Assembly (NCBI GenBank): GCA_022566735.1
Contig: JADFIG010000005.1
Coordinates: forward strand, 62,001-126,000
DNA length: 64,000 nucleotides
Direction of reading: 5' to 3'
Source: Pseudomonadota bacterium
GTDB lineage: Bacteria > Pseudomonadota > Gammaproteobacteria > Burkholderiales > Burkholderiaceae_C
The position numbers and the translations under genes were made by a program. The notes beneath the pieces are model-generated. The model was not told where the DNA came from and searched no databases. It was given only the letters and a program-made list of their open reading frames with translations. Shown in pieces: positions 1,774 through 62,132 of this stretch (its first letter is position 1; every line of letters starts with the position of its first letter).

Positions 1774-2400
1774 ATGCAAGCATTCAAGCTTTCCTTCGTT
1801 GCCCTGGCCCTGTCCGCCGTGGCTGCTTCGGCCTCCGCCATGTCTTCGATCGACGACGCCGCCCTGAGCCAGATCAGCGGTCAAGACGGTGTGTCGATCG
1901 CCGGTGACCTGAACATCAACATCGGTTCCTTCAAGTACACCGACACCGACGCCACCGGCGGTTCCGTGTCCTTCAACGACATCGGCATCAAGGGCCTGTT
2001 CGTGATGACCATCGACATCCTGGGCAAGCCCGCCTTCGTGTCGACCGTCTCCAACTCGATCGGCGCACGTCTGGGCTTCACCCAGGCTGACGCCACCAGC
2101 GCCGCTGCTGCTGCCGCCGGCCTGGGTGCTCCCACCGCCAACGGCGCCATCATCGCTGGCGAACTGGCCAAGCTGACCGGCGCTACCTTCGACGCCTTCG
2201 GCGCTGCCACCGGCGACGCCATCTACGCTGGCTCCGACGTGGTCCAGTTCGCTTTCCCCAACGCCAAGCTGAAGGGCGAACTGACCCCCAGCGTGACCGT
2301 GGGTTCGATCAAGATGGGCAACAGCAACGCTTCCTTCGGTTCGTTCGCCATCAACAACATCGACATGCAAGGCACCAAGGTCTGGATGTGGGCCCACTGA
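1774..2400 (+). CDS. Secreted Fil/DUF6160-like signature protein (putative major surface subunit)
   Basis: A 208-residue exported protein. Residues 1-22 form a Sec signal peptide ending ASASA, followed at once by the signature [18 protein letters not shown]. The rest is Gly/Ala/Asn/Thr-rich, with short alternating stretches ([24 protein letters not shown]) suggesting beta structure, and ends in [15 protein letters not shown] lies 7 bases before the ATG. Codon use is strongly biased to AAC, GGT, CTG and GAC, unlike the neighbouring operon, which suggests high expression. It has its own transcription unit, with a hairpin downstream and the repeat element upstream. It resembles Acinetobacter FilA-type proteins as I recall them. 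The role as a pilus or amyloid-like subunit is inference. Confidence 0.75.
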
Positions 2401-2473
2401 TCTGGCTGGCCTCATCTGGCCTGAGCAGGTCTGACCAAGGTGCGTTCAGGCGCACCTGAAATCTCCATCGACA

Positions 2474-2501
2474 GCCCCTGATCGTTTCTGCGGTCAGGGG
2501 C
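2474..2501 (+). terminator. Hairpin terminator after the secreted-protein gene
   Basis: The arms GCCCCTGATCG and CGGTCAGGGGC (one G-U pair) form an 11-bp stem around a TTTCTG loop. The tract that follows (GTTGTCG) is poor in T, so termination may be partial or factor-assisted. It lies 74 bases after the stop codon. Confidence 0.6.
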
Positions 2502-2613
2502 GTTGTCGCTGCGGTGTGACACCCGGATGCGGGGTGAGGCGCTCCCATCTCATGGCAAACCCACCGGGGAGATGCCCGCCTTACAGCCGATCCCAGGGTT
2601 TTCACGGTGATCT

Positions 2614-3681
2614 ATGTTGCAGAGTATCTGTAAGCATTTGCCGTTTGTCGCTCAGGAATCCTTGTTGTCGCTCACCCGCATGGCTGTCAAATCGTTCTCG
2701 ATGTCGCAAATCGCCTGGTTCAACACCATGCGCGATGCCTTGTCCCTGCGCGGCCTGGACATGGACGAGCTGGTGCGGCAGTGTGGGCAGACCTTCAATG
2801 CGCTGGAGATGGACGTCAACGCGCTGTCGGACCTGATGTCCTGCGTGTGGGAGATGGCCGTGCAGCGCACCGGCGATGCCAGCATCGGGCTGACCCCGCC
2901 GACCCACCCCTTGTCGGCTTTCGGCGTGATCGCGCAGCTGCTGCTGTCCGCCCAGGACCTGCTGGACGCCGCGCGCAGCATGGCGCGCTTCGCGGCACTG
3001 GTGTCGCCGACCTTCGCCATGGACGTGGTCCGCGAGGGGGAGAACTGCCTCGTGACCTTCAGCATCGCGGGCGGGCGCCGGCCCGTGCCCATGCAGCGTT
3101 TCGACTTCGTGGCCATGGTCTTCCTGACCGGTGCGCGCTGGCTCACGGGCAAGGCCCTGGTGCCCCATGTGCTGCACATGCCCTTCGCCCAGCCGCCCGA
3201 CGTGGGGCCGTGGCGCCGGGCTTACGGCTGCCCCATCGTGTTCGATGCCGAGGCCTTCCGCGTTGAGTTCCTGCTGCGCGACATGCTGCAGCCTTTGCCC
3301 ACGCGCGATCCGGCCGTGGCCGACATGTGTGCGCGGCTGGCCCTGCAAGCCAGCGTGCAGACCGGCGGCCAGTTCACGGTCAAGGTGCGGCAGGCCGTGG
3401 CCCGCATCCTCAGCAAGGGCGACCCCCACCGCGAGCAGATCGCCGAGCTGCTGTGCGTGAGTGAGCGCACCTTGCAGCGCCGCCTCAGCGAGGAGGGCAC
3501 GAGCTTTGCCGAGATCGTCGATGCGCACCGCCGAGAGCGTGCCGAGCAGCTGCTCGCGCAGGGGCGCCTGAGCGTGTCGGAGATGGCCTTCGAGCTGGGC
3601 TTTTCCGACCCCAGCAATTTCTACCGGGCCTGCAAACGCTGGTTCGGCCTGTCGCCGGCGAGCTTCCGCTCGACCTCTTGA
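2614..3681 (+). CDS. AraC-family regulator with arabinose_bd-type N-terminal domain
   Basis: About 355 residues. The N-terminal 220 residues resemble the PF12625 ligand-binding/dimerisation domain of OruR/ArgR-like regulators (RGLDMDELVRQCG near residue 45, LSAFGVIAQLLLSAQDL near residue 105). The C-terminal 100 residues are an AraC double helix-turn-helix: IAELLCVSERTLQRRLSEEG, then LSVSEMAFELGFSDPSNFYRACKRWFGLSPASFR. It lies between the secreted-protein gene and the eight-gene operon, both preceded by the same repeat, so it probably controls this locus. The start is uncertain: ATG 2614 gives the longest form, while ATG 2680 or a TTG near 2665 after AGGAA are possible. Confidence 0.87.
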   Translation: MLQSICKHLPFVAQESLLSLTRMAVKSFSMSQIAWFNTMRDALSLRGLDMDELVRQCGQTFNALEMDVNALSDLMSCVWEMAVQRTGDASIGLTPPTHPLSAFGVIAQLLLSAQDLLDAARSMARFAALVSPTFAMDVVREGENCLVTFSIAGGRRPVPMQRFDFVAMVFLTGARWLTGKALVPHVLHMPFAQPPDVGPWRRAYGCPIVFDAEAFRVEFLLRDMLQPLPTRDPAVADMCARLALQASVQTGGQFTVKVRQAVARILSKGDPHREQIAELLCVSERTLQRRLSEEGTSFAEIVDAHRRERAEQLLAQGRLSVSEMAFELGFSDPSNFYRACKRWFGLSPASFRSTS

Positions 3682-3712
3682 ACCAAGGGGTCGACCCGAC
3701 TGCGTTTGTCCG

Positions 3713-3772
3713 TAAGGGGTTTCCTCGCCCTTCAAGCAAGTGGCTCCCAAAGTCATGCGCTTGGCCCCAGGG
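3713..3772. repeat. Upstream repeat element, copy 2
   Basis: Near-repeat of the element at 1546. The first 19 bases are identical and the CAAGC, GTGG, CATG and GCTTGGC blocks keep their spacing. It ends about 140 bases before the first gene of the operon and 30 bases after the AraC stop codon. It is a candidate binding site for the neighbouring regulator. Confidence 0.6.
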
Positions 3773-3912
3773 GTCACGGCCGCTCAGGGTCATTTCGCGA
3801 TGATTCGGCAGCCGCCTTCAACGCGACGCGCTGCGCGACAAGCCAATAACCATCGGCGTTTCGACCGATCCATCTTCCGGGCCACCGCCGTTTCACCTGC
3901 CGAATTGCCACC

Positions 3913-4662
3913 ATGCTGTTCACACTGTGTCGCTCGCTGCTGCCGAGCCTGAGCCTGGCGCTCATGGCCGCTGCGCCCGCGCACGCGCAGGGCGTGCCCA
4001 TCGACGACGAGGCGCTGTCGCAGGTGTACGGCCAGGCGATGTTCAGCCTGAGCAACACCAGCGTCAACGGCTTCGATTTCTCGCGCATCACCCTCAACGC
4101 CGACGTGCAGCTCGCCGCCACCCTCGGCGGCCTGCGCCTGGGCGAGTACAGCCACAGCGTGCGCAACGGCACGGGCGCCGACATCGACATCGGCACGCTG
4201 CAGTTCGGCAACGCGGCCACGCGCAGCGCGGTGGCCATCACCGACCCCTACGTCGAGTTCGTCTACCGCAACGTGGGCAACGCGGCCACGCGCGAGGTCG
4301 TGGGCATGCGCCTGGGCTTTGGCAGCATCAAGGGCGACATCGGCCTGCAGGCCAATGCCATCAGCGGCGCACTGCTGATCAACGCCGGCGGCAACAGCAT
4401 CGACAGCAGCCAGGACCCGCTGGGCGGCGTGCGCTGGGATGGCAGCACCTGTGCCGGGGGCAACACCTGCGCGGTCAAGCTCAGCGACCTCGCCGGCGTG
4501 AAGGCGGGCGACAGTGCCGGGGGCAGCCGCGACTTCTTCATCTCGGTGCTCAAGACGGCGGTGAACTTCCCCACCACCAACGCGGCGCTGGCGGCTTCGG
4601 CCACCGCCCAGGCGGGCTTCTGGCTGAACTGGCGTGACCGGCTCAATGCCGTGCTCAAGTGA
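3913..4662 (+). CDS. Secreted signature protein 2 (Fil-like operon, first gene)
   Basis: A 249-residue exported protein with a signal peptide (residues 1-25, ending APAHA) and then QGVPIDDEALSQVYGQ, which matches the family signature except that the usual G-[QR]-D-G ends as GQAM. The mature part is rich in Gly, Asn and Thr with repeated hydrophobic/polar alternation (DFSRITLNADVQL, DIDIGTLQFGN), so it is probably all-beta. Two Cys (CAGGNTC, near residue 180) could form a disulfide. It opens an operon running without gaps to 11922. I know of no tested function; a minor subunit or adhesin is inference from context. Confidence 0.68.
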   Translation: MLFTLCRSLLPSLSLALMAAAPAHAQGVPIDDEALSQVYGQAMFSLSNTSVNGFDFSRITLNADVQLAATLGGLRLGEYSHSVRNGTGADIDIGTLQFGNAATRSAVAITDPYVEFVYRNVGNAATREVVGMRLGFGSIKGDIGLQANAISGALLINAGGNSIDSSQDPLGGVRWDGSTCAGGNTCAVKLSDLAGVKAGDSAGGSRDFFISVLKTAVNFPTTNAALAASATAQAGFWLNWRDRLNAVLK

Positions 4663-4669
4663 GGTGGGC

Positions 4670-5608
4670 ATGAGCCGAGTGTGCGTGCGGCCCCGCGCGG
4701 GCCTGACCCTGACGACGCTGTCGTGGTGCCTGAGGACGCTGCTGTCGATGCCGCTGCTGGTGCCGCTGTGGATGCCGCTGTGGATGCCGAATGCCCACGC
4801 AGCGGGACTGAGCTCGCTCGACGATGCCGACCTGGCCCGCGTGGCTGGCCGCGATGGCGTGGCCTTCAACCTCAAGGGCTTTGCCATGAGCGGGCCGCTG
4901 AGCTTCACCTACACCAGCCCCGAAGCCGGCTCGCCCAGCCTGAGCCTGGGCAACCTGTCGCTGTCGCGCTCGGACGACGAGGCCCACACCTTCACCGACC
5001 CCTATCGCCTCGACATCGTGGCCAGGCCGGGCATGGCCGATGTCCTGCGCCTGAGCAACCCGCTCAACGAGCTGGGCCTGATCCAGTGGCAGTTCGCGGC
5101 CGACCTCACCATCAAGGACGCCAGCTCGACCTTCGAGGCCGGCAGCCTGATCCTGCGCAACGTCGGCATCTACGGCGGTGGCCTGGACATCACCACGCCG
5201 GCCACCCCGGGTGTCGAGGGCTTTGCCTTCGGCCTGGCGCTGCGCGTGGACATCGGCGATGTGCTGATCCGCCCGCGCGGCCGCGACGACATCACCGTGG
5301 CCGACCCGGGCACCGTCGGCGAGCAGCTGCGCATCAGCGGCGTCCACATCGGCACCCCCGATGGCAAGCCCTGGGCCATCGCCGATGCCACCACCCAGCC
5401 GGGCATCATCAACGCCGTGACCGACGCCAATGGACAGTCCTTCCTGCACGTGGGCATCGACTGGTCGAGCGCGCCGCAAGGCCCGGCCACCGGGCGGGTG
5501 GTCATCGACAACATCGCCTTCAAGAGCGACGTGACGGGCAACCTCGATCTGGGCAGCAGCCGCATCAACGCGATCCAGCTGCAGTACCTGGACATCAAGT
5601 TCCGCTGA
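4670..5608 (+). CDS. Secreted signature protein 3
   Basis: 312 residues. The start at 4670 was chosen because GAGGTG sits just before it and upstream ATG codons overlap the previous gene. The N-terminus is a long signal sequence with a duplicated PLWMPLWMP segment ending NAHA, then LSSLDDADLARVAGRDGVAF, a full signature. The body alternates hydrophobic and polar residues (LSFTYTSPE, LSLGNLSLSRS, DVLIRPRG) and ends in AIQLQYLDIKFR. It follows the preceding gene by 7 bases. It is probably exported and beta-rich; function unknown. Confidence 0.68.
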   Translation: MSRVCVRPRAGLTLTTLSWCLRTLLSMPLLVPLWMPLWMPNAHAAGLSSLDDADLARVAGRDGVAFNLKGFAMSGPLSFTYTSPEAGSPSLSLGNLSLSRSDDEAHTFTDPYRLDIVARPGMADVLRLSNPLNELGLIQWQFAADLTIKDASSTFEAGSLILRNVGIYGGGLDITTPATPGVEGFAFGLALRVDIGDVLIRPRGRDDITVADPGTVGEQLRISGVHIGTPDGKPWAIADATTQPGIINAVTDANGQSFLHVGIDWSSAPQGPATGRVVIDNIAFKSDVTGNLDLGSSRINAIQLQYLDIKFR

Positions 5609-5617
5609 GGGCCAGCC

Positions 5618-6106
5618 ATGCGCAAGAACAGGTCGATGTCGACGTGGATGAAGCTGTGCCTGTGGATGGCAGGGCTGCTGCTGGCGCCGGTGCTGCACGC
5701 CGAGCCGCTGCCCCTGGACGAGGCCGAGCTGGCCCAGGTCAGCGGGCGCGACGGCATCGGCTTCGCGGTGCACCTGGAGATCAACTCAGCGCCCATCTAC
5801 GGGCTGGACATCGACAGCCGCCTCACCGCGGGCTTCACTGTCGACGGCCTCAAGACCTACCTGGTGGCGCTCAACCCCGGCGGGATCATCGACCTGTTCG
5901 CCATGGCGCTGAACCTGCGCACGCGCCCGGACGGCGGCGACTACATCGACGTGACGCTGCCGTTCTTCGTGGGCGTGCAGGACTTCGGCGTGCGTGCCCT
6001 GAGCGCGCAGACCGATCCGCGCGCGCCCATCACCAACAGCTACGGGCAGTTCCTGCTCAACGGCCATGCCTCGATGCAGGGCCACCTCTACCTGTGGGCG
6101 CAGTGA
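5618..6106 (+). CDS. Secreted signature protein 4
   Basis: 162 residues: a signal peptide (MKLCLWMAGLLLAPVLHA) then EPLPLDEAELAQVSGRDGIGF, the clearest copy of the family signature. It ends in MQGHLYLWAQ, which resembles the [11 protein letters not shown] end of the protein at 1774, so the two may be incorporated in the same way. It starts 10 bases after the previous stop with GAGGGCC upstream. The mature domain is short and beta-rich (IDSRLTAGFTVDGLKTYLVAL). Function unknown; probably a minor component of the same surface structure. Confidence 0.68.
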   Translation: MRKNRSMSTWMKLCLWMAGLLLAPVLHAEPLPLDEAELAQVSGRDGIGFAVHLEINSAPIYGLDIDSRLTAGFTVDGLKTYLVALNPGGIIDLFAMALNLRTRPDGGDYIDVTLPFFVGVQDFGVRALSAQTDPRAPITNSYGQFLLNGHASMQGHLYLWAQ

Positions 6107-6128
6107 CGCCCGCGACCGGAAGCACCCC

Positions 6129-6893
6129 ATGTTGCCCATGCTCCTCGGCATCATCGCCAGCGCCATCGGAGGCTCTGCCGCCACCGACCGCCACCCGCCA
6201 CTGGAGGTGCCCAAGGGCGAGTTCAACCTGCCCATGGTGGCCGTGGGCGGCGGCGTCTCGCCGGAGCAGGTGACGATCAGGCCCTACTCCGAGTTCAAGT
6301 TCGAGAACATCGTCCACCAGGCCTACGACTACAGCTGCGGCTCGGCCGCGCTGGTGACGGTCATCAACCACTACCTGGGCATCCCGGTGACGGAGCAGCA
6401 GGCCATGGAAGGCATGCTGGAACACGGCCAGCGCGAGAAGATCATCGAGCGCCGCGGCTTTTCGCTGCTCGACATGAAGCGCTATGTGGCCTCGCTGGGC
6501 GCCACCGGTGCGGGCTTCCGCGGCGAGATGGAGGACCTGGCCAAACTGACGCAGCCGGCCATCGTGCCGATCGACTACGCCGGCTTCAAGCACTTCGTCG
6601 TGTTCCGCGGCATCCGCGATGGCCGCGTGTTCATCGCCGACCCGTCGGCGGGGCACATCGTCTTCACGGTCGAGCAGTTCGCCAAGCTGTGGGACCGCAA
6701 CACCCTCTTCCTGCTGAACCTGCCGAGCACGGCCGGCCAGCCGCTCACCCGCCTGGCCCTCACCGACCGCGAACTCGGCGTGATCGATGGCGACACCGTG
6801 CGGGCCAGCGCCAAGCTGCCCATGCCCGACCACAGCGACATCCTGCGCAACGCCGTTCAGACCGGCACCGGCCTCTTCATCCTTCGCAAGTGA
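6129..6893 (+). CDS. C39-family cysteine peptidase, FilB/FapD-like
   Basis: 254 residues with a hydrophobic N-terminus (LPMLLGIIASAIGGSAA). The C39 fold shows the catalytic Cys in YDYSCGSAALVTVINHY (about residue 77), RGFSLLDMKRYV, the His in FKHFVVFRGI (about residue 157) and an Asp in VFIADPSAG. C39 peptidases process leader peptides of secreted substrates; FapD of the Fap amyloid system and the putative Acinetobacter FilB are free-standing members of this type. This one has no ABC-transporter part and probably acts in the periplasm on the signature proteins encoded just upstream, which is inference. GGAAG precedes the ATG. A 70-residue C-terminal extension follows the catalytic core. Confidence 0.85.
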   Translation: MLPMLLGIIASAIGGSAATDRHPPLEVPKGEFNLPMVAVGGGVSPEQVTIRPYSEFKFENIVHQAYDYSCGSAALVTVINHYLGIPVTEQQAMEGMLEHGQREKIIERRGFSLLDMKRYVASLGATGAGFRGEMEDLAKLTQPAIVPIDYAGFKHFVVFRGIRDGRVFIADPSAGHIVFTVEQFAKLWDRNTLFLLNLPSTAGQPLTRLALTDRELGVIDGDTVRASAKLPMPDHSDILRNAVQTGTGLFILRK

Positions 6894-6898
6894 GCACC

Positions 6899-7939
6899 AT
6901 GCAGTACTTCCGTACCTTGAGCATCCCCGTCACCCTGAGCGCCTTGGCGGTGCTGTCCCTGGCCGTGTCCCTTCCCGAACTGGCGCTGGCCCAGTCCACC
7001 GACGTTGCCGCGAGTGGCAGCAGCGATGCCGCCCGCAGCGCCCTGGGCAAGCAGGAGGGCGACGTCGACCAGGCCACGCTGCTCAAGCAGACGCTGACGG
7101 CCTCGGACAAGCAGTATTCGCTGGTGAAGACCGGCAAGATGATGGTCACCTACGACCTCAACTACAGCTACACCGGCCAGCAGCAGATCGACGCCAAGTT
7201 CACCGACAGCACCCTGACGCTGTTCAAGATCGAGAACACCCGCGCCCACACCATCACCAACACGGTGTCGCTGGACTACGGCTTGCGCGACAACGTGACG
7301 GGCAGCGTCTCCTTGCCGCTGGTGAGCAAGTACTCGGAGTCGTCGTCGTTCTCCGGCACCTCGCACGCCTTCGGCGACGTGCAGCTGGGCCTGCGCTGGC
7401 AGCCTTTCGAGCTGCGGCGCGACACCCCCAGCCTGACCACCAGCGCCACGCTGCGCCTGCCCACCGGCCGCAGCCCCTACCGCACCGATGCGACCAAGAA
7501 CCTCTCCACGGGCTCGGGCACGACCGGCATCACCTTCGGCGCCAACACGTCCAAGATCATCGACCCGATCGCGCTGTTCGGCTCGGTCAGCCTGGGCTTC
7601 AGCCTGCCGGCCAAGCACCTCAGCCAGGTGCGCGACGGCATGACGCTGGTGGAGCTGCGGCCGGGGCCGTCGGTCGGCTTCGGCGGCGGCTTTGCCTATG
7701 CGCTGTCCTATGACGTCTCGACCACGATGTCCATCCAGGAGACGCTGTCCTTCCCCAGCCGCCTGCGTTTCTCCGACGGTTCGACCGTGCGCACCAGCGT
7801 GCAGACCTCGGGCATGTTCAACATGGGCCTGGGGGTGCGCACCTCGCCGACCAACACGATGAACTTCACCGTGGGCGTGGGCCTGACGTCGGACTCGCCC
7901 GACTTCACGCTGGGCCTGAACATGCCGCTGAACTTCTGA
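6899..7939 (+). CDS. Outer-membrane beta-barrel protein (transporter/FapF-like)
   Basis: 346 residues. A signal peptide (ending ALAQ, about residue 32) is followed by a polar segment (SSDAARSALGKQEGDVDQATLLKQTL) that may be helical, then about twelve amphipathic beta strands: MMVTYDLNYSYTG, NTVSLDYGLRDNVTGSVSLPLVSKY, FGDVQLGLRWQPF and others. It ends in FTLGLNMPLNF, a C-terminal Phe typical of BAM-inserted barrels. A short N-terminal helical plug followed by a barrel is the plan of FapF, the Fap secretion pore, but similarity beyond architecture cannot be judged by eye. It starts 5 bases after the peptidase stop and may be the export pore for the signature proteins. Confidence 0.75.
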   Translation: MQYFRTLSIPVTLSALAVLSLAVSLPELALAQSTDVAASGSSDAARSALGKQEGDVDQATLLKQTLTASDKQYSLVKTGKMMVTYDLNYSYTGQQQIDAKFTDSTLTLFKIENTRAHTITNTVSLDYGLRDNVTGSVSLPLVSKYSESSSFSGTSHAFGDVQLGLRWQPFELRRDTPSLTTSATLRLPTGRSPYRTDATKNLSTGSGTTGITFGANTSKIIDPIALFGSVSLGFSLPAKHLSQVRDGMTLVELRPGPSVGFGGGFAYALSYDVSTTMSIQETLSFPSRLRFSDGSTVRTSVQTSGMFNMGLGVRTSPTNTMNFTVGVGLTSDSPDFTLGLNMPLNF

Positions 7940-7952
7940 CGGGCTGCCGGGC

Positions 7953-9569
7953 GTGAAGCGTTTGCAAGTCACCGTCACCGCGCTGGCCTGCGCGGCCGCG
8001 CTGCTGGCCGCCTCCGGTCTGCTGCGGCCTGCGCATGCGGCACTGACGGACAACCTCGCCGTCAGCGTCAAGGCCATGTCCATGGGCAACGCCGTGACGG
8101 CCGACCCGCCGGGGGTGGACGCCATCCACTTCAATCCGGCCGGGCTGTCGCGCCTGGAGGGGGACGTCAAGCAGGACAACTTCTTCGGCGCCTCGATCCG
8201 CTTCAAGTCGCGTCTGGACAAGCCCGAGGGCTTCGACATCGGCGGCTGGAAGGACGACCCGGTGGCGGGCACCAGCAGCGGCAAGATGCGCCAGAAGATC
8301 TACCTTCCGGGCATCGGGCCGTCGAAGTTCAGCCTGCCGGCCGCCGTGGCCGCGGGCATGGGCTTCAGCTTCAACCGCAAGGGCTCGCCCTGGACCTTCG
8401 CCACGGCCGTCTACGTGCCGCAGGGCGTGGGCATCGTGCGGCCGGACGCGAACGACCCGACGCGCTTCGATGGCCAGCAGGTCATCCTGCAGCGCCTGGT
8501 CTACCTCTCGCCCTCCGTGGCCTACAAGGTGTCCGACACGCTGAGCGTGGGCCTGGCCGTGCCGATCGCGCACCAGAGCTTCGCGCTGAACACGGACATG
8601 CGCTTCCCCAACAAGCTGCTGGGCATCATCGGCAAGCTGCAGGACGCCTGGTGCGGCGACGGCGGCAACCCGCTCGACGCCCTCGGCTTCGGCCTGTGCG
8701 GCGGCGGCAAGGAAGGGCGGCTGCGGCCCTTCAACAAGGCCGGCAGCATGCAGTTCGACATGACCGCGCCGGTCGACCCGACCTTCAACCTCGGTGTGCT
8801 GTGGGAGCCCAAGGACTGGTTCGCGGCCGGCCTGGTCTACCAGTCGGGCACGCGCAGCACGCTGACCGGACGCTACAGCTTCCAGGCCGAGCCCATGCTG
8901 CCGCGCTTCGTCGAGGGCATGTACAGCAGCCTGCTGGGCCCGGTGGTGGCGGCCATGCTGGGCTTCCCCACCAGCATCCCGGCCGAGCAGTCCGGCTATG
9001 CCACGATGAAGCTGCCTTTCCCGGCGCACTGGCAGCTGGGCATCAAGCTCAAGCCGATGAGCCGGCTGCAGTTCAACGTGGATGTGAACTACACCGACTG
9101 GCGCAAGTGGGACAAGCTGGAGATCCAGTTCGACCGCCAGGTCAACCTGCTGCAGATGGCGCGCCTCTTCGGCCAGGGCGATGCGTCCCGTCTGGTGATC
9201 CCGCGTGGCTACAAGGACCCGGTGCACTTTGGCTATGGCATGGAGATCGGCCTGACCAAGGGCTTCAAGCTGCGCTTCGGCTACGAGCCGCGCAAGACCT
9301 CGGTGCCGCAGTCGGCCTTCGACCTGATCGCGCCGCTGCCCCAGCTCAATGTGCGCAGCATCGGCTTCGGCTACGAGGCGCCCTCCGGCCTGAAGGTCGA
9401 TGCTGCCTTCAGCTACGCCAAGGGCCGCTACAACATCCCGCACGACACGAGCTGCAACCTCAACTGCACCAATTTCTTCAACCTGATCTACAACCCCTAC
9501 GCGGGCCTGGACGTCTCCGGGACGACCACCCTGCGCTACGGCGGCGTGTCGATCACCCAACCGTTCTGA
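7953..9569 (+). CDS. FadL/OmpP1/TodX-type outer-membrane protein
   Basis: 538 residues with a GTG start and a signal peptide (ending RPAHA). The mature N-terminus carries the FadL-family hatch pattern: AVSVKAMSMGNAVTADPP, then AIHFNPAGLSRLEG. Repeated beta strands follow (WTFATAVYVPQGVGIV, LVYLSPSVAYKVSDTLSVGLAVP, HWQLGIKLKPMSRLQFNVDVNYTDW), and the protein ends in YGGVSITQPF with a terminal Phe. FadL proteins move hydrophobic molecules across the outer membrane by lateral diffusion. At 538 residues it is longer than E. coli FadL and contains a Cys/Gly-rich loop (WCGDGGNPLDALGFGLCGGG). Its place inside the operon suggests a role in the surface system rather than general fatty-acid uptake. Confidence 0.82.
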   Translation: MKRLQVTVTALACAAALLAASGLLRPAHAALTDNLAVSVKAMSMGNAVTADPPGVDAIHFNPAGLSRLEGDVKQDNFFGASIRFKSRLDKPEGFDIGGWKDDPVAGTSSGKMRQKIYLPGIGPSKFSLPAAVAAGMGFSFNRKGSPWTFATAVYVPQGVGIVRPDANDPTRFDGQQVILQRLVYLSPSVAYKVSDTLSVGLAVPIAHQSFALNTDMRFPNKLLGIIGKLQDAWCGDGGNPLDALGFGLCGGGKEGRLRPFNKAGSMQFDMTAPVDPTFNLGVLWEPKDWFAAGLVYQSGTRSTLTGRYSFQAEPMLPRFVEGMYSSLLGPVVAAMLGFPTSIPAEQSGYATMKLPFPAHWQLGIKLKPMSRLQFNVDVNYTDWRKWDKLEIQFDRQVNLLQMARLFGQGDASRLVIPRGYKDPVHFGYGMEIGLTKGFKLRFGYEPRKTSVPQSAFDLIAPLPQLNVRSIGFGYEAPSGLKVDAAFSYAKGRYNIPHDTSCNLNCTNFFNLIYNPYAGLDVSGTTTLRYGGVSITQPF

Positions 9570-9577
9570 GCATCCCG

Positions 9578-10189
9578 ATGACCGCAGTTCACGCATCCAT
9601 GCCCGCCCGTCTCCGTCGCAGCCTGAGCCTGTCGGCCCTGGCCACCGCCCTGTCCCTGAGCGCCATGGGCGTGCATGCCCAGGCCCAGCCCCAGCCCCCG
9701 GCGGGTGAGGCCAAGGCCAGCGAAGCCAAGGCCCGCCTCATCGAGCGCCTGCTGACGGTGTGGCACCCCGAGGACGTGGCCATCGTCATGGTGCAGCGCC
9801 CGGCCGCCGATGCGCTGCAGCAGGCCCGCATCGCCCTGCAGGGCCGTGTCACGCCGGAAAAGCGCGATGCCACCATCAAGGACATGGCCACCGACGTGCA
9901 GAAGTACATCGATGAGGCCACGCCGGTGGTGCGTGACAGCGCCAAGCGCTCGCTGGCGACCTCGGTGGTGCCGATGCTGCAGCAGAACTTCAGCGAAGAA
10001 GAGCTCAAGCAGCTCATCGTGCTGATGGAGTCGCCGGTCAAGAAGAAGTTCGAAAGCCTGCTGCCCCAGATGGAGCGCGCCCTCGGCGAGAAGGTGGCCA
10101 AGGAGAGCCGCGCCGTCATCGACCCGAAGCTGCAGGCCCTGACCCAGGCGGTCGGCCTGAAGCTGCGCGGCGCCACGGTGGCACCATGA
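9578..10189 (+). CDS. DUF2059-domain periplasmic protein
   Basis: 203 residues with a signal peptide ending GVHAQA. The C-terminal half matches DUF2059: NFSEEELKQLIVLMESPVKKKFESLLPQME, i.e. the F-x-x-x-E-L, SP-x-x-K-K-F and P-x-M elements, in an all-helical region. DUF2059 proteins are periplasmic and of unknown function. It starts 8 bases after the FadL-like gene and overlaps the next gene by 4 bases, so it is co-translated with the rest. A second possible ATG is at 9599. Within the operon it could act as a periplasmic chaperone; this is inference only. Confidence 0.78.
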   Translation: MTAVHASMPARLRRSLSLSALATALSLSAMGVHAQAQPQPPAGEAKASEAKARLIERLLTVWHPEDVAIVMVQRPAADALQQARIALQGRVTPEKRDATIKDMATDVQKYIDEATPVVRDSAKRSLATSVVPMLQQNFSEEELKQLIVLMESPVKKKFESLLPQMERALGEKVAKESRAVIDPKLQALTQAVGLKLRGATVAP

Positions 10190-11922
10190 GCCTGATGCGC
10201 GGTCCTCGCTCCCTGATGGCCTGGCTGGTCCGGCTGATCCGGCTGGCGCGGGCCCCGGCCCTCGCGTTCGGCCTGGCCATGGGTCTCGCGCTGGGCCTGA
10301 GCGCCTGCGGTGGCGGCTCGACCAAGGGCGGCAGCGGCACGCTGGCGACCGGCACCGACGCCACCCATGGCGCACTCACGCTGGGCCTCAGCGGCGGTGC
10401 GCAGCGCGAGGTCGAGCACGTCTGGGTGACCATCGGCAGCGTGGCCTTGCACAGCTCGGCCACCCAGGCCTGGAGCAGCAGCGACCGCAGCTGGGTCGTG
10501 CTGAACCTGCCCACCCCGGTGGTGGTCGACCTGGCGCAGACCTCGCAGCCCAACACCTCGCAAAGCGACGTCAGCCGCGTGCTGGACGGTGTCTCGGTGC
10601 CGCAGGGCAGCTACGCGCAGATGCGCCTGTTCCCGCTGGCCCATGACGCGGACTTGGTGGACGCCGCGCGCAATGCGGGCCTCGGCCACAACGCCCAGGT
10701 GCGCTACACCGATGCCACCGTGGGCACGCAGAACATGCCGCTGGAGTTGCCCCAGCCCGCGCAGGGCTGGCGCTTCGAGGGGGCGCTGAACGTGGTGGCC
10801 GGCCAGTCGAACTACGTGGTGCTGCAGTCCGATGTCCAGCACAACCTGGTGCGCCTGGCCAGCAGCGATGGGCGGGCCCGCTTCGGCTGGCGCTCGCAGA
10901 TGAGCGGTTTCGACCTCACCAGCAGCGGCGCCATCTTCGGCTACATCGACCCGGCCAGGCTGTGCGGTGGGACGGGGGCCGCGGCCGCGCCCAACTGTGC
11001 CTCGGAGGTCATCGCCAGCGCACAGCGCCTGAGCGCCGATGGCAGCCGCTACGAGAGCGTCCGGGCGGCGCGCGTGGGCACGGGCGGCGGCTTTGCGCTC
11101 TACCCCTTGCCGTCGGCCTCGCAGTTCGACGTGGTCATCACCGGCCGGCACATGCAGACCATGGTGATCCGCGCGGTGACGGTCTCGGCCTTCAATGTGC
11201 TCACCACGCTGGACTGGTCGGCCCTGGGCTCGACCACCTCGCCGCTGACCCCGGTGATCGTGCCGGGGACGGAGCCCGGCGTGAGCCTGTCTGCCGCGGT
11301 GGTGCCGGGCAGCGGAGCCCTGCGCATGGGGCAGACCCTGGCGGCGGCGGGCAAGCCCCACGAGGTGGCGACGCAGCAGCGCGACCCGTTCACGGGCCGG
11401 CTGGCCAGGGAGCTGACCGTGCCCGCCGGGCCGCTGAGCGTGGCCACCTTCACCAGCAGTGGCGCCGCGCTGAGCTTCGCCGACGAGACGCCTGTGGAAG
11501 GCCTGCAGGGCTTCAGCGCCCAGGCGGCGGGCCGCAGCCACGACGATGACGGTGCGGTGGCGACGGTGTCGGCCCCGGCGCCGGGCAGCCTGATCGCCGT
11601 GCCCAACCCGAGCCTGAAGGCCGGTGTGGGCACCGGCCTGGTGAACGTGACCCTGACGGGGGCGCTGTCGCCGAGCTACGACCAGGCGATGGTGGTGGTG
11701 GCCGATGTGGATGGCATCGTGCAGACGCAGTCGGTGTCTGGCGCGGGCTCGGTGTCCCTGGCGGTGCCGGCCGGCGCGAACGCGGCGGCCCATGGCGGCG
11801 CGCTCTACAGCGTCGCGGTGCGGGCCACCGGGGCGAGCGGGACCTTGCGCTGGGTGCGGGCGCCTGCGCTGGTGGACTTGCGTGCAGGCGGCAGCGTCGG
11901 CGTGACGCTGGCCTTGCCCTGA
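10186..11922 (+). CDS. DUF4382-type lipoprotein, FilF-like
   Basis: 578 residues. A long basic N-region and hydrophobic stretch end in the lipobox LGLSAC (Cys near residue 43), followed by GGGSTKGG. The next 150 residues resemble DUF4382 (HVWVTIGSVALHSS, WVVLNLPTPVVVDLAQ, VSVPQGSYAQMRLFPL). The C-terminal part is long, Ala/Gly/Ser/Val-rich and apparently beta-sandwich-like (GTGLVNVTLTGALSP, GALYSVAVRATGASG). It overlaps the DUF2059 gene as ATGA and closes the operon. The predicted site is an outer-membrane-anchored lipoprotein, perhaps a tip or anchor; a large lipoprotein closes Acinetobacter fil loci as I recall. Confidence 0.72.
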   Translation: MSLMRGPRSLMAWLVRLIRLARAPALAFGLAMGLALGLSACGGGSTKGGSGTLATGTDATHGALTLGLSGGAQREVEHVWVTIGSVALHSSATQAWSSSDRSWVVLNLPTPVVVDLAQTSQPNTSQSDVSRVLDGVSVPQGSYAQMRLFPLAHDADLVDAARNAGLGHNAQVRYTDATVGTQNMPLELPQPAQGWRFEGALNVVAGQSNYVVLQSDVQHNLVRLASSDGRARFGWRSQMSGFDLTSSGAIFGYIDPARLCGGTGAAAAPNCASEVIASAQRLSADGSRYESVRAARVGTGGGFALYPLPSASQFDVVITGRHMQTMVIRAVTVSAFNVLTTLDWSALGSTTSPLTPVIVPGTEPGVSLSAAVVPGSGALRMGQTLAAAGKPHEVATQQRDPFTGRLARELTVPAGPLSVATFTSSGAALSFADETPVEGLQGFSAQAAGRSHDDDGAVATVSAPAPGSLIAVPNPSLKAGVGTGLVNVTLTGALSPSYDQAMVVVADVDGIVQTQSVSGAGSVSLAVPAGANAAAHGGALYSVAVRATGASGTLRWVRAPALVDLRAGGSVGVTLALP

Positions 11923-11943
11923 GCGCGGCTGTCCCGGGGGCGC

Positions 11944-12486
11944 TCAGCGCGGCAGCATCGGCGCGCCGAACAGCGGCATGGCCAGCGGTGCCGTGACCAT
12001 GGTCACCGGCGTGATGGCGGCCAGCATGGCGCCCGTCTGGGCCATGCGCACCGCGTTGGCGCTGCCCTGGAGGGCCGCACTGAGGGCCAGCGAGGTCTCC
12101 ATCTGCACAGCCTGGCGGCTGAGCGTGTTCATCAGCAACTGGCTTTGCGAAGCACCCGAACTGGCGGTCTCCGGGCGCTTGGCGTCGTCCTTGTGGCTGT
12201 CCTGGGCGTCGGGCGGCGGGCCGGCACGGCGCTCGTCGCCTTTGCGGCGGCGATCCTGGCCAGCGCCTTGCCCAGCGTTCGGGCCCGCGTTCAGGCGGCT
12301 GAGGGCGATGTCGTCCAGCCCGGCGCCGTGCAGGGCCAGCAGCTCATGGTCGGGCAGCGTCTGCAGGCCGCTGTGGGGGGCGTTGTGCGGGGTGTTTTGC
12401 GGGCCATCCTGGGCCAGGCAGGGCAAGGTCCAGGGCAGGGCGGCCAGGCCGACGAGGGCCCGCATCCAGCGGTGCTTGATGTGCAT
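11944..12486 (-). CDS. Exported protein with divergent Fil-type signature (convergent to the operon)
   Basis: 180 residues. The ATG at 12486 has GGGAG 8 bases before it. A signal peptide (MRALVGLAALPWTLPCLAQ) is followed by a short Asn/Pro linker and LQTLPDHELLALHGAGLDDIALSR, which looks like a decayed copy of the L-D-D-x-x-L-x-x-[VI]-x-G-[QR]-D-G signature of the four proteins at 1774-6106. A charged, Gly/Asp/Arg-rich middle (GQDRRRKGDERRAGPPPDAQD) and a hydrophobic Met/Ala-rich C-terminus follow. It ends 21 bases from the operon's last stop, on the other strand. No known domain was recognised; membership of the family is a tentative reading of the signature. Confidence 0.6.
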   Translation of the reverse strand: MHIKHRWMRALVGLAALPWTLPCLAQDGPQNTPHNAPHSGLQTLPDHELLALHGAGLDDIALSRLNAGPNAGQGAGQDRRRKGDERRAGPPPDAQDSHKDDAKRPETASSGASQSQLLMNTLSRQAVQMETSLALSAALQGSANAVRMAQTGAMLAAITPVTMVTAPLAMPLFGAPMLPR

Positions 12487-12634
12487 GTGCGCTCCCATGA
12501 TCCCGGCGGCCCGCACCTGCGAGGGCAGGGCGACAAGGCCAGCCGCTGGAGCTGATGTCGGCCGCATCGGGCGGCGTTTGAGGGGAGGCGGTGCACGCGC
12601 GCCGCAGCAGCGTGCAGAATCGACACGGGCAAAG

Positions 12635-12669: not shown

Positions 12670-12746
12670 TGGTGCGGCTGGCAGGATTCGAACCCACGAC
12701 CCCTTGGTTCGTAGCCAAGTACTCTATCCAACTGAGCTACAGCCGC
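12670..12746 (-). tRNA. tRNA-Arg(ACG), downstream copy
   Basis: 77 bases including an encoded CCA. The acceptor stem is GCGGCTG / CAGCCGC, the D arm includes AGCTCAGTTGGATAGAGTA, the anticodon stem CTTGG/CCAAG encloses the loop CTACGAA (anticodon ACG, read as ICG after deamination), and the T arm contains GGTTCGAATCC. Identical to the copy at 12815-12891. It is last in the pair, just before a terminator. Confidence 0.97.
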
Positions 12747-12814
12747 TTGAAAATGAGAAGGCCCGCAGACAAAGGCCACGGGCCCGGCACATTTTCTGTC
12801 ATCGAAAAAGTCTC

Positions 12815-12891
12815 TGGTGCGGCTGGCAGGATTCGAACCCACGACCCCTTGGTTCGTAGCCAAGTACTCTATCCAACTGAGCTACAGCCGC
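12815..12891 (-). tRNA. tRNA-Arg(ACG), upstream copy
   Basis: 77 bases, CCA-encoded, base-for-base the same as the copy at 12670-12746. A 68-base spacer separates the two, so they are very likely co-transcribed and processed from one precursor. Anticodon ACG serves CGU/CGC/CGA codons, and CGC dominates in this genome. Confidence 0.97.
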
Positions 12892-61827: not shown

Positions 61828-62132
61828 GTGTTGCGCTCCACGATCTCGCGGGTCAGTTGGTCGAACTCGGTGTTGGCACGGCGCACGTACAGGCCGGTCA
61901 GCAGCCAGGAGCCGGCGATCAGCACGGCGCCCACGGGCACGCCCACGGTCAGGGTGCTGCCCTCGAACAGGGCCTGGGCGAAGATGCCGGGGGCGAAGGC
62001 GACCACGGCCATGAAGGCGTAGTAGGCGCCCAGCACCACGATCGACAGGGTCAGGGCCAGGCGGCCGCGCCGCTGGACGAGTTGCTTGAAGGCGGGGTCG
62101 GACTCGACCCGGCGGTAGATGTCTTGGCTCAT
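61824..62132 (-). CDS. yjcH: DUF485 (YjcH-like) membrane protein
   Basis: 102 residues: [40 protein letters not shown] and [33 protein letters not shown], two helices in the DUF485 pattern. It is always found with ActP and presumably helps its assembly or regulation. Overlaps actP by 4 bases and lies 40 bases after the acyl-CoA ligase stop. Confidence 0.95.

Follow-up and report, generated by a model that had tools for sequence, protein, structure and literature searches.

Described relatives and layout of the locus

Two described systems come closest to the locus reported here, which lies at positions 1,774 to 12,486 of a 64,000-nucleotide stretch (the window; positions 62,001 to 126,000 of contig JADFIG010000005.1 in the Pseudomonadota assembly GCA_022566735.1). 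The first is the fil operon of Acinetobacter, a six-gene "putative pilus system" that is named in passages of PMC4751259. The second is the Fap system of Pseudomonas, whose C39 peptidase, FapD, is described in a passage of PMC5557850 as periplasmic, with an active-site Cys that is needed for FapC secretion and a target that is unclear. Judged by its sequence, the locus in the window is a real and conserved betaproteobacterial relative of the Acinetobacter fil operon. We put the probability at roughly 0.77 that it is a complete fil-type pilus locus, with cleavage of a C39-type leader, export through the outer-membrane barrel FilC, and assembly at the cell surface. The preliminary description of this DNA had called the system undescribed, and that claim stands in part: fil has already been named in Acinetobacter and a relative of the secreted protein S1 has been deposited as a filament (PDB 9xfv), and we found no paper explaining FilA to FilD, DUF6160 or 9xfv among the titles, abstracts and passages of the open-licence literature. 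FilB, FilC or FilD are mentioned in three Acinetobacter papers (PMC8887720, PMC8792954 and PMC6330354).

All genes of the preliminary description are present in the window, confirmed as open reading frames (ORFs) and by Pfam and NCBIfam matches. The features are as follows (slashes mark predicted cuts).

1546 to 1564, + strand: 19-bp element TAAGGGGTTTCCTCGCCCT, upstream of S1; exact copy at 3713
1774 to 2400, + strand: S1, of FilA type and probably the main fibre subunit; by eye a Sec signal, then a cut predicted behind G36-Q37 that leaves D38-H208 as the mature part
2614 to 3681, + strand: AraC-type regulator; Pfam Arabinose_bd domain 1.8e-26, HTH_18 2.4e-23
3713 to 3731, + strand: 19-bp element again, ahead of the S2 operon; identical to the copy at 1546
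3913 to 4662, + strand: S2, secreted and leader-bearing, leader end YGQ; two Cys conserved among homologues
4670 to 5608, + strand: S3, leader-bearing S1 paralogue, leader end AGR/DG; start codon uncertain (GTG 4670 or ATG 4748)
5618 to 6106, + strand: S4, leader-bearing S1 paralogue, leader end SGR/DG
about 6129 to 6893, + strand: FilB, free-standing C39 peptidase; NF050078 1.1e-71, signal-like N-terminus
6899 to 7939, + strand: FilC, FapF-related outer-membrane barrel; NF050079 2.8e-87, FapF 5o68 1.2e-28
7953 to 9569, + strand: FilD, FadL/Toluene_X-type barrel; NF050080 3.1e-131, Toluene_X 4e-48, weak PorV_fam 2.1e-7
9578 to 10189, + strand: DUF2059-like secreted protein in the place of FilE; Pfam 0.0011, below cut-off
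10186 to 11922, + strand: DUF4382 protein in the place of FilF; Pfam 1.5e-10, lipobox LSA/CGGGS by eye
11944 to 12498 (or 12486), - strand: S5, convergent gene; GA-type leader LPDHELLALHGA followed by G

From S2 to the DUF4382 gene (3913-11922), the genes form one same-strand run that is almost gapless. As in the Acinetobacter operon, FilA-type leader proteins are followed by FilB, FilC and FilD, adjacent and in that order, an arrangement also seen in the gammaproteobacterial-type locus L066. The window differs in having several S genes, an AraC-type regulator and a shared upstream element. It also differs at the operon end: its DUF2059-like and DUF4382 proteins match no Fil model, while L066 keeps FilF (NF050081, 9e-19).

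The S proteins share a leader behind the Sec signal

The shared leader is the most informative feature of the locus. In S1 to S5 it directly follows the Sec signal and reads L-x-D-x-x-L-x-x-V-x-G-[QRGA] with small deviations, and its spacing is that of C39 "double-glycine" leaders. Leaders of that kind have the consensus LSxxELxxIxGG, with hydrophobic residues at -12, -7 and -4, an acidic residue at -8, Gly at -2, and Gly, Ala or Ser at -1.

We collected 479 S-like ORFs, of which 413 had a leader and 66 had none under our filter, and obtained 276 unique leaders. Positions -7, -4 and -2 had been used in selecting them, and positions -12, -10 and -8 were free of selection. At positions not used for selection, 79% of the unique leaders had L, M or I at -12, 76% had D or E at -10, and 81% had Q, R, A or G at -1; position -8 held E or D in 48% and Ala in 30%. 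The residue at -1 was Q in 48%, R in 17%, A in 9% and G in 7%, and the commonest ends were GQ (135), GR (47), GA (27) and GG (22), with GS in 6. Twenty of the 22 GG leaders are genuine, all from S3 or S4 (for example, LDDKELSQVSGGDG), and the other two are miscalls. The set as a whole fits the double-glycine consensus at -12, -7, -4, -8 and -2; it includes some miscalls inside signal peptides or downstream and at least 10 wrongly registered segments with Ala at -2, and four genomes entered the collection twice (L061/L111, L062/L110, L063/L113, and L064/L112). Among 25 of the 66 leaderless ORFs that we inspected, many were overlapping-frame ORFs and some carried true leaders that the filter had missed (e.g., S3 of locus L152).

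A natural full-length S4 from Duganella (L168) scored 17.3 bits against the bacteriocin leader model TIGR01847, above its cut-off of 15.7, and its leader alone scored 20.6; two other GG leaders scored 15.7 and 15.4 bits. We also searched 89 diverse leaders (the first 90 of 123, minus one with masked letters): 20 matched FilA and a few matched double-glycine families other than TIGR01847, and none of the 89 shuffled leaders matched any family. In the window itself, the leaders of S1 and S3 matched FilA (model positions 20-42 in the case of S1), that of S4 matched a model for ATP-grasp targets among ribosomally synthesized and post-translationally modified peptides (RiPPs) at 0.083, and those of S2 and S5 had no match. 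When a model of the leader was run against the window's genome, the five best matches were S4, S2, S1, S3 and, weakly, S5 (E 0.18), with the next match at 0.73. A strict leader pattern had no match in the Fap-like stretches L071 (19 kb), L012-L019 and L026-L049 (about 2 to 4 kb).

The S proteins had been described as four or five paralogues. Five do share the leader, and three of these are paralogous, since likeness beyond the leader was found only among S1, S3 and S4. S1 matched Pfam DUF6160 at 2e-21 and NCBIfam FilA at 1.1e-7 (31.5 bits, cut-off 220), a score below the cut-off that makes it a FilA relative. S3 matched DUF6160 at 7.8e-6, just under the cut-off. By hhalign, S4 aligned with S1 at 98.9% over 140 columns (E 3e-17) and S3 aligned with S1 at 97.8% over 127 columns. 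The likeness of S2 to S1 is confined to the 25-residue leader, and the leader motif is the sole feature that S5, which has syntenic homologues, has in common with the other S proteins.

Two variants of these proteins were seen outside the window. In genome G030, an S1-like protein (L196 9294-9836) has the leader DADLHQVFAKDG, without Gly at -2 and with FAKDG where others have SGQDG; G030 has no fil-kind FilB, and this protein is perhaps decaying. In three Massilia-group loci, S5-like proteins (L135 14894-15679, L149 14917-15651, and L175 14030-14833) have one more domain at the N-terminus, about 75 residues long, ahead of the membrane segment and leader. This domain matched DUF4388 weakly (1.4e-4 to 0.1, below cut-off) and has by eye the look of a GspE/MshE N-domain; the proteins are possibly cytoplasmic sensors fused to a leader protein.

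S1 as the likely main filament subunit

The sole PDB match to S1 (phmmer, E threshold 0.1) was chain A of 9xfv, a deposition of 25 chains named "bacteria pilus (like)", at an E value of 9e-76. Residues 38-208 of S1 align with the whole chain (1-173), with 75.7% identity over the mature protein, and the first residue of the chain is the one that follows the predicted S1 cut (SGQ/DGVS). From this match, S1 is most likely a main filament subunit. The deposited chain differs from S1 and so stems from a different species or strain. Of the sequences compared, the one closest to S1 (85.5% identity) was from a Roseateles metagenome-assembled genome. No paper on 9xfv was found by its code in the open-licence literature, where the titles returned were unrelated. 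Profiles of S4, S3 and S2 and the single sequence of FilD matched no solved structure, and no plasmid had a match to S1 at 1e-5. The S1 alignment (A4) took 44 of 64 diverse S1 sequences.

The codon use of S1 fits strong expression, in agreement with its description as an abundant-looking protein: all of its two-fold codons end in C and all of its Thr codons are ACC (100% in both cases), against 73-94% and 50-88%, respectively, in 13 other genes, though its overall GC content at third codon positions (0.85) is the lowest among the 14 genes compared.

FilB, FilC and FilD as candidate export machinery

FilA, FilB, FilC and FilD all matched below the curated cut-offs of the NCBIfam models NF050077-NF050081, which we take to stand for the Acinetobacter proteins (FilB, 241.5 of 475 bits; FilC, 293.5 of 630; FilD, 438.3 of 970), so the window's proteins are relatives of those families and not members. 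In FilB, the catalytic residues Q85, C91, H176 and D192 (numbered from 6066) were invariant in eight aligned sequences. Its profile matched the C39 domains of PCAT and ComA transporters (6mpz, 4ry2, and ComA chains) at 4.4e-9 to 0.006, and the leader of the S proteins has the spacing of leaders cut by these transporters. In contrast to the PCAT and ComA systems, the window's leader follows a Sec signal and mostly has, in leaders of its type, Gln or Arg at -1; the C39 peptidase is free-standing with a signal-like N-terminus, and no ABC transporter was found among the locus products with Pfam and NCBIfam. The same searches returned neither an usher with a chaperone nor a prepilin peptidase with an ATPase, the hallmark components that would be expected of chaperone-usher and type IV pili.

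The parallel to Fil and Fap drawn in the preliminary description was borne out by the matches to the Fil models (FilB, FilC and FilD as listed above; FilA, 1.1e-7) and by a FilC profile that finds FapF. Against solved structures, this profile matched the FapF entries 5o65, 5o67 and 5o68 at 1.2e-28 to 2.3e-28, with nothing else below 0.06, and FilB matched FapD at 1.4e-36. The locus thus shares with Fap a signal-bearing C39 peptidase and a FapF-type barrel, and these matches would suit a Fap-like functional amyloid, in which the S proteins would remain unfolded until they leave the periplasm through FilC and form cross-beta fibrils. We consider this unlikely. The curated scores of the Fap families were not reached (FapF, 74.3 of 700 bits; FapD, 125.9 of 330 bits), indicating homologues rather than members. 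We found no Asn/Gln-rich repeat subunit of the FapB/FapC kind: at the DNA level, S1, S2 and S4 had no long repeats and S3 had one pair of 32 nucleotides at 75%, and the Asn and Gln contents of S1 are low (4.8% and 2.9%). The deposited relative of S1 is named pilus-like, and an amyloid nature of S1 is not supported. The locus differs from Fap further in the added FadL-type barrel and in the C39-type leader, as Fap proteins are reported, in a passage of PMC5557850, to have no canonical C39 sequence. Finally, elsewhere in the window's genome there is another locus that is Fap-like (L071 9125-13804, on G000:C7), with a FapF-like barrel, a FapD-like C39 peptidase, a Gly/Ser/Asn-rich secreted protein of 394 residues and, by eye, an adjoining sigma54-type regulator. 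A simple Fap amyloid was rejected on the lack of clear repeats and on the unreached cut-offs.

FilD matched Toluene_X at 4e-48 and, weakly, PorV_fam, a family of FadL-like barrels with a link to type IX secretion, and FilC also matched Pfam Phenol_MetA_deg at 2.8e-5. These matches would be expected if the locus served uptake of hydrophobic compounds, with the FadL-type barrel and a surface lipoprotein at its center and S proteins that bind lipids. Such a function is very improbable, as the deposited name of the S1 relative describes a filament, a peptidase and a leader suit export and not uptake, and no catabolic enzyme was found among the locus products with Pfam and NCBIfam. We rejected an uptake locus for explaining neither the leader nor the filament.

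The end of the operon seems exchangeable. FilE and FilF were not found at the window, and no FilE model was among any of the matches. The DUF4382 protein had no NCBIfam model at an E value of 10, and the DUF2059-like protein matched only TrsD, which is unrelated, at 0.13. In the Pseudomonas locus L189, a MalM-domain protein (2.5e-25) follows FilD. According to a passage of PMC12802150, FilF of Acinetobacter baumannii is a lipoprotein that needs the type II system for its release. The lipoprotein encoded at the end of the window's operon may thus travel separately.

Linkage and conservation of the locus

DUF6160 proteins were found in 6 of 369 genomes of the class (E 0.001). FilC matched in 36 of the 369 at 1e-8 and FilB in 45 at 1e-15, and in each case the six genomes with DUF6160 stood apart from the rest (FilC, at least 198 bits against at most 88; FilB, at least 211 bits against at most 137). 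Among the 42 genomes of the genus, 7 had a FilB of the fil kind and 9 had DUF6160. A weak DUF6160 match at G000:C27 was judged to be noise.

Our 80 named loci are the best 80, by FilB similarity, of at least 496 relatives. They include Aquabacterium, Paucibacter/Roseateles, Ideonella, Massilia, Duganella, Rugamonas and eight Pseudomonas loci. FilB was present in all 80 by construction, FilC in 80 and FilD in 78; 64 had an AraC gene, and 78 had one or more of S1 to S4 within the stretch retrieved. FilB, FilC and FilD kept their order and lay on one strand in 78 of the 80, a synteny on which chance co-location was rejected. A relative of the DUF2059-like protein was found in 69 loci and was absent from all eight of Pseudomonas, and a relative of the DUF4382 protein was found in 7. 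In the Massilia group, most loci have their S genes next to FilB-FilC-FilD-DUF2059, in a run that is divergent or separate.

The leader also occurs away from such loci. Two genomes of one distant family each had 13 DUF6160 matches, scored among 17 and 22 candidates, respectively, and scattered over contigs. Of the 26 matches, 23 ended by profile position 56, around the signal and leader, and a leader-only model had 13 and 16 matches in the same two genomes. This pattern would fit a machinery that serves mainly to secrete many small proteins with a leader (bacteriocin- or signal-like) by a general route, with a fibre as one product among others. We regard that as improbable for the window, since the clear leader proteins of its genome lie in the locus and S1, S3 and S4 look like fibre subunits.

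The 19-bp element and neighboring genes

Even with as many as 3 mismatches allowed, the 19-bp element has only two copies in the window's genome (3.8 Mb, 89% complete), one before S1 and one before the S2 operon; the reversed pattern, as a control, matched once in the same genome. An 18-base core of the element (at most 1 mismatch) was present in all 7 fil-positive genomes of the genus. The AraC-type protein is predicted to bind the element. In L064 and L065, the AraC gene is flanked by two S1 copies (L064 3028-6107 and L065 5007-8034), each with the element before it. The window has one S1 and yet a second element before S2, which suggests that an S1 copy was lost.

A scan for promoters and terminators returned one terminator-like site, close to the tRNA genes, and nothing resembling a sigma-70 site. 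Upstream of the locus is a DedA/TVP38-like gene (by eye), and downstream are two tRNA-Arg (acg) genes (12670-12891) and hemY/hemX-type genes. The tRNA-Arg pair was also found downstream in L064 (18019-18215), and none was found in L061, L063 and L065 over the stretches retrieved.

A proposed route of export and assembly

The route that uses every part of the locus runs from Sec through a FilB cut after G-Q and passage through FilC to assembly on the surface. The subunits would cross the inner membrane by Sec, and loss of the signal peptide would expose the second leader, of about 15 residues and of the C39 double-glycine type. FilB, as a free periplasmic C39 peptidase, would recognize the hydrophobic positions -12, -7 and -4 and cut after G-Q (or G-R, G-G or G-A). 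This peptidase step is supported by the Fap precedent, in which an active-site mutant of FapD secretes no FapC. The freed subunits would then traverse the outer membrane through FilC, a putative FapF-like pore, aided by FilD and the DUF2059-like protein, and polymerize on the cell surface. S1 would be the main fibre subunit, and S3, S4 and S2, made from the operon, would probably be minor subunits at the base or tip. The DUF4382 lipoprotein may be a surface or base accessory, and the AraC-type protein and the 19-bp element may switch S1 and the operon jointly.

Several observations weigh against this proposal. Some concern linkage. The preliminary description had named, as a result that would count against it, signature proteins occurring mostly without the peptidase and barrel genes; this was not what we saw (6 of 6 class genomes and 78 of 80 loci have both), with two unexplained exceptions in the 42-genome genus, G021 (99% complete) and G030 (71%), which have DUF6160 proteins and no FilB match of fil strength. 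In G021, one S1 is located next to an AraC gene at the end of a contig, so an assembly gap may account for this case. Conversely, loci L132 and L180 have FilB, FilC and FilD and none of S1 to S4 within the stretch retrieved. The 18-base core of the element also occurs at one mismatch in 2 of 35 fil-negative genomes of the genus, and its exact 16-base core was found in 10 of 208 loci, all of the genus, and in none outside it.

Other observations concern the leader and the filament. TIGR01847 matched few unselected leaders (4 of the 89, best E 0.03), and none of the window's five leaders matched any bacteriocin leader family. With mostly Gln at -1 and with at least 10 of the 276 segments showing Ala at -2 through misregistration, the site is not a classic double-glycine site. 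The leader model, which matched 8 of 8 fil-positive and 1 of 16 fil-negative genomes, had been trained partly on the same fil-positive genomes that it then found. Lastly, 9xfv is known here by its chain sequence, molecule name and chain count, and its N-terminus may reflect the modelled part only.

In our estimate, the chances are even that Fil represents a pilus and export class in its own right, in which Sec export is combined with a C39 leader that serves as an address read in the periplasm by FilB and with a FapF-type pore, and in which the locus has neither chaperone-usher components nor an ATPase. Leader matches number at most 16 per genome, many of them far from the machinery. In such a class, all substrates would be recognizable by the sequence of their leader, and FapD may work by the same logic.

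The proposal joins three loose ends, namely, a "putative pilus" operon that has a name but no assigned function, a filament deposited as pilus-like, and the targets of periplasmic C39 peptidases. A "FilF pilus assembly protein" has been tried as an Acinetobacter vaccine antigen, according to a passage of PMC4751259, and our analysis suggests that this antigen is part of a machine for which the subunit and the processing step can now be predicted. If the proposal is true, the export substrates of such machines would be readable from sequence in the genomes of Burkholderiales, Pseudomonas and Acinetobacter.

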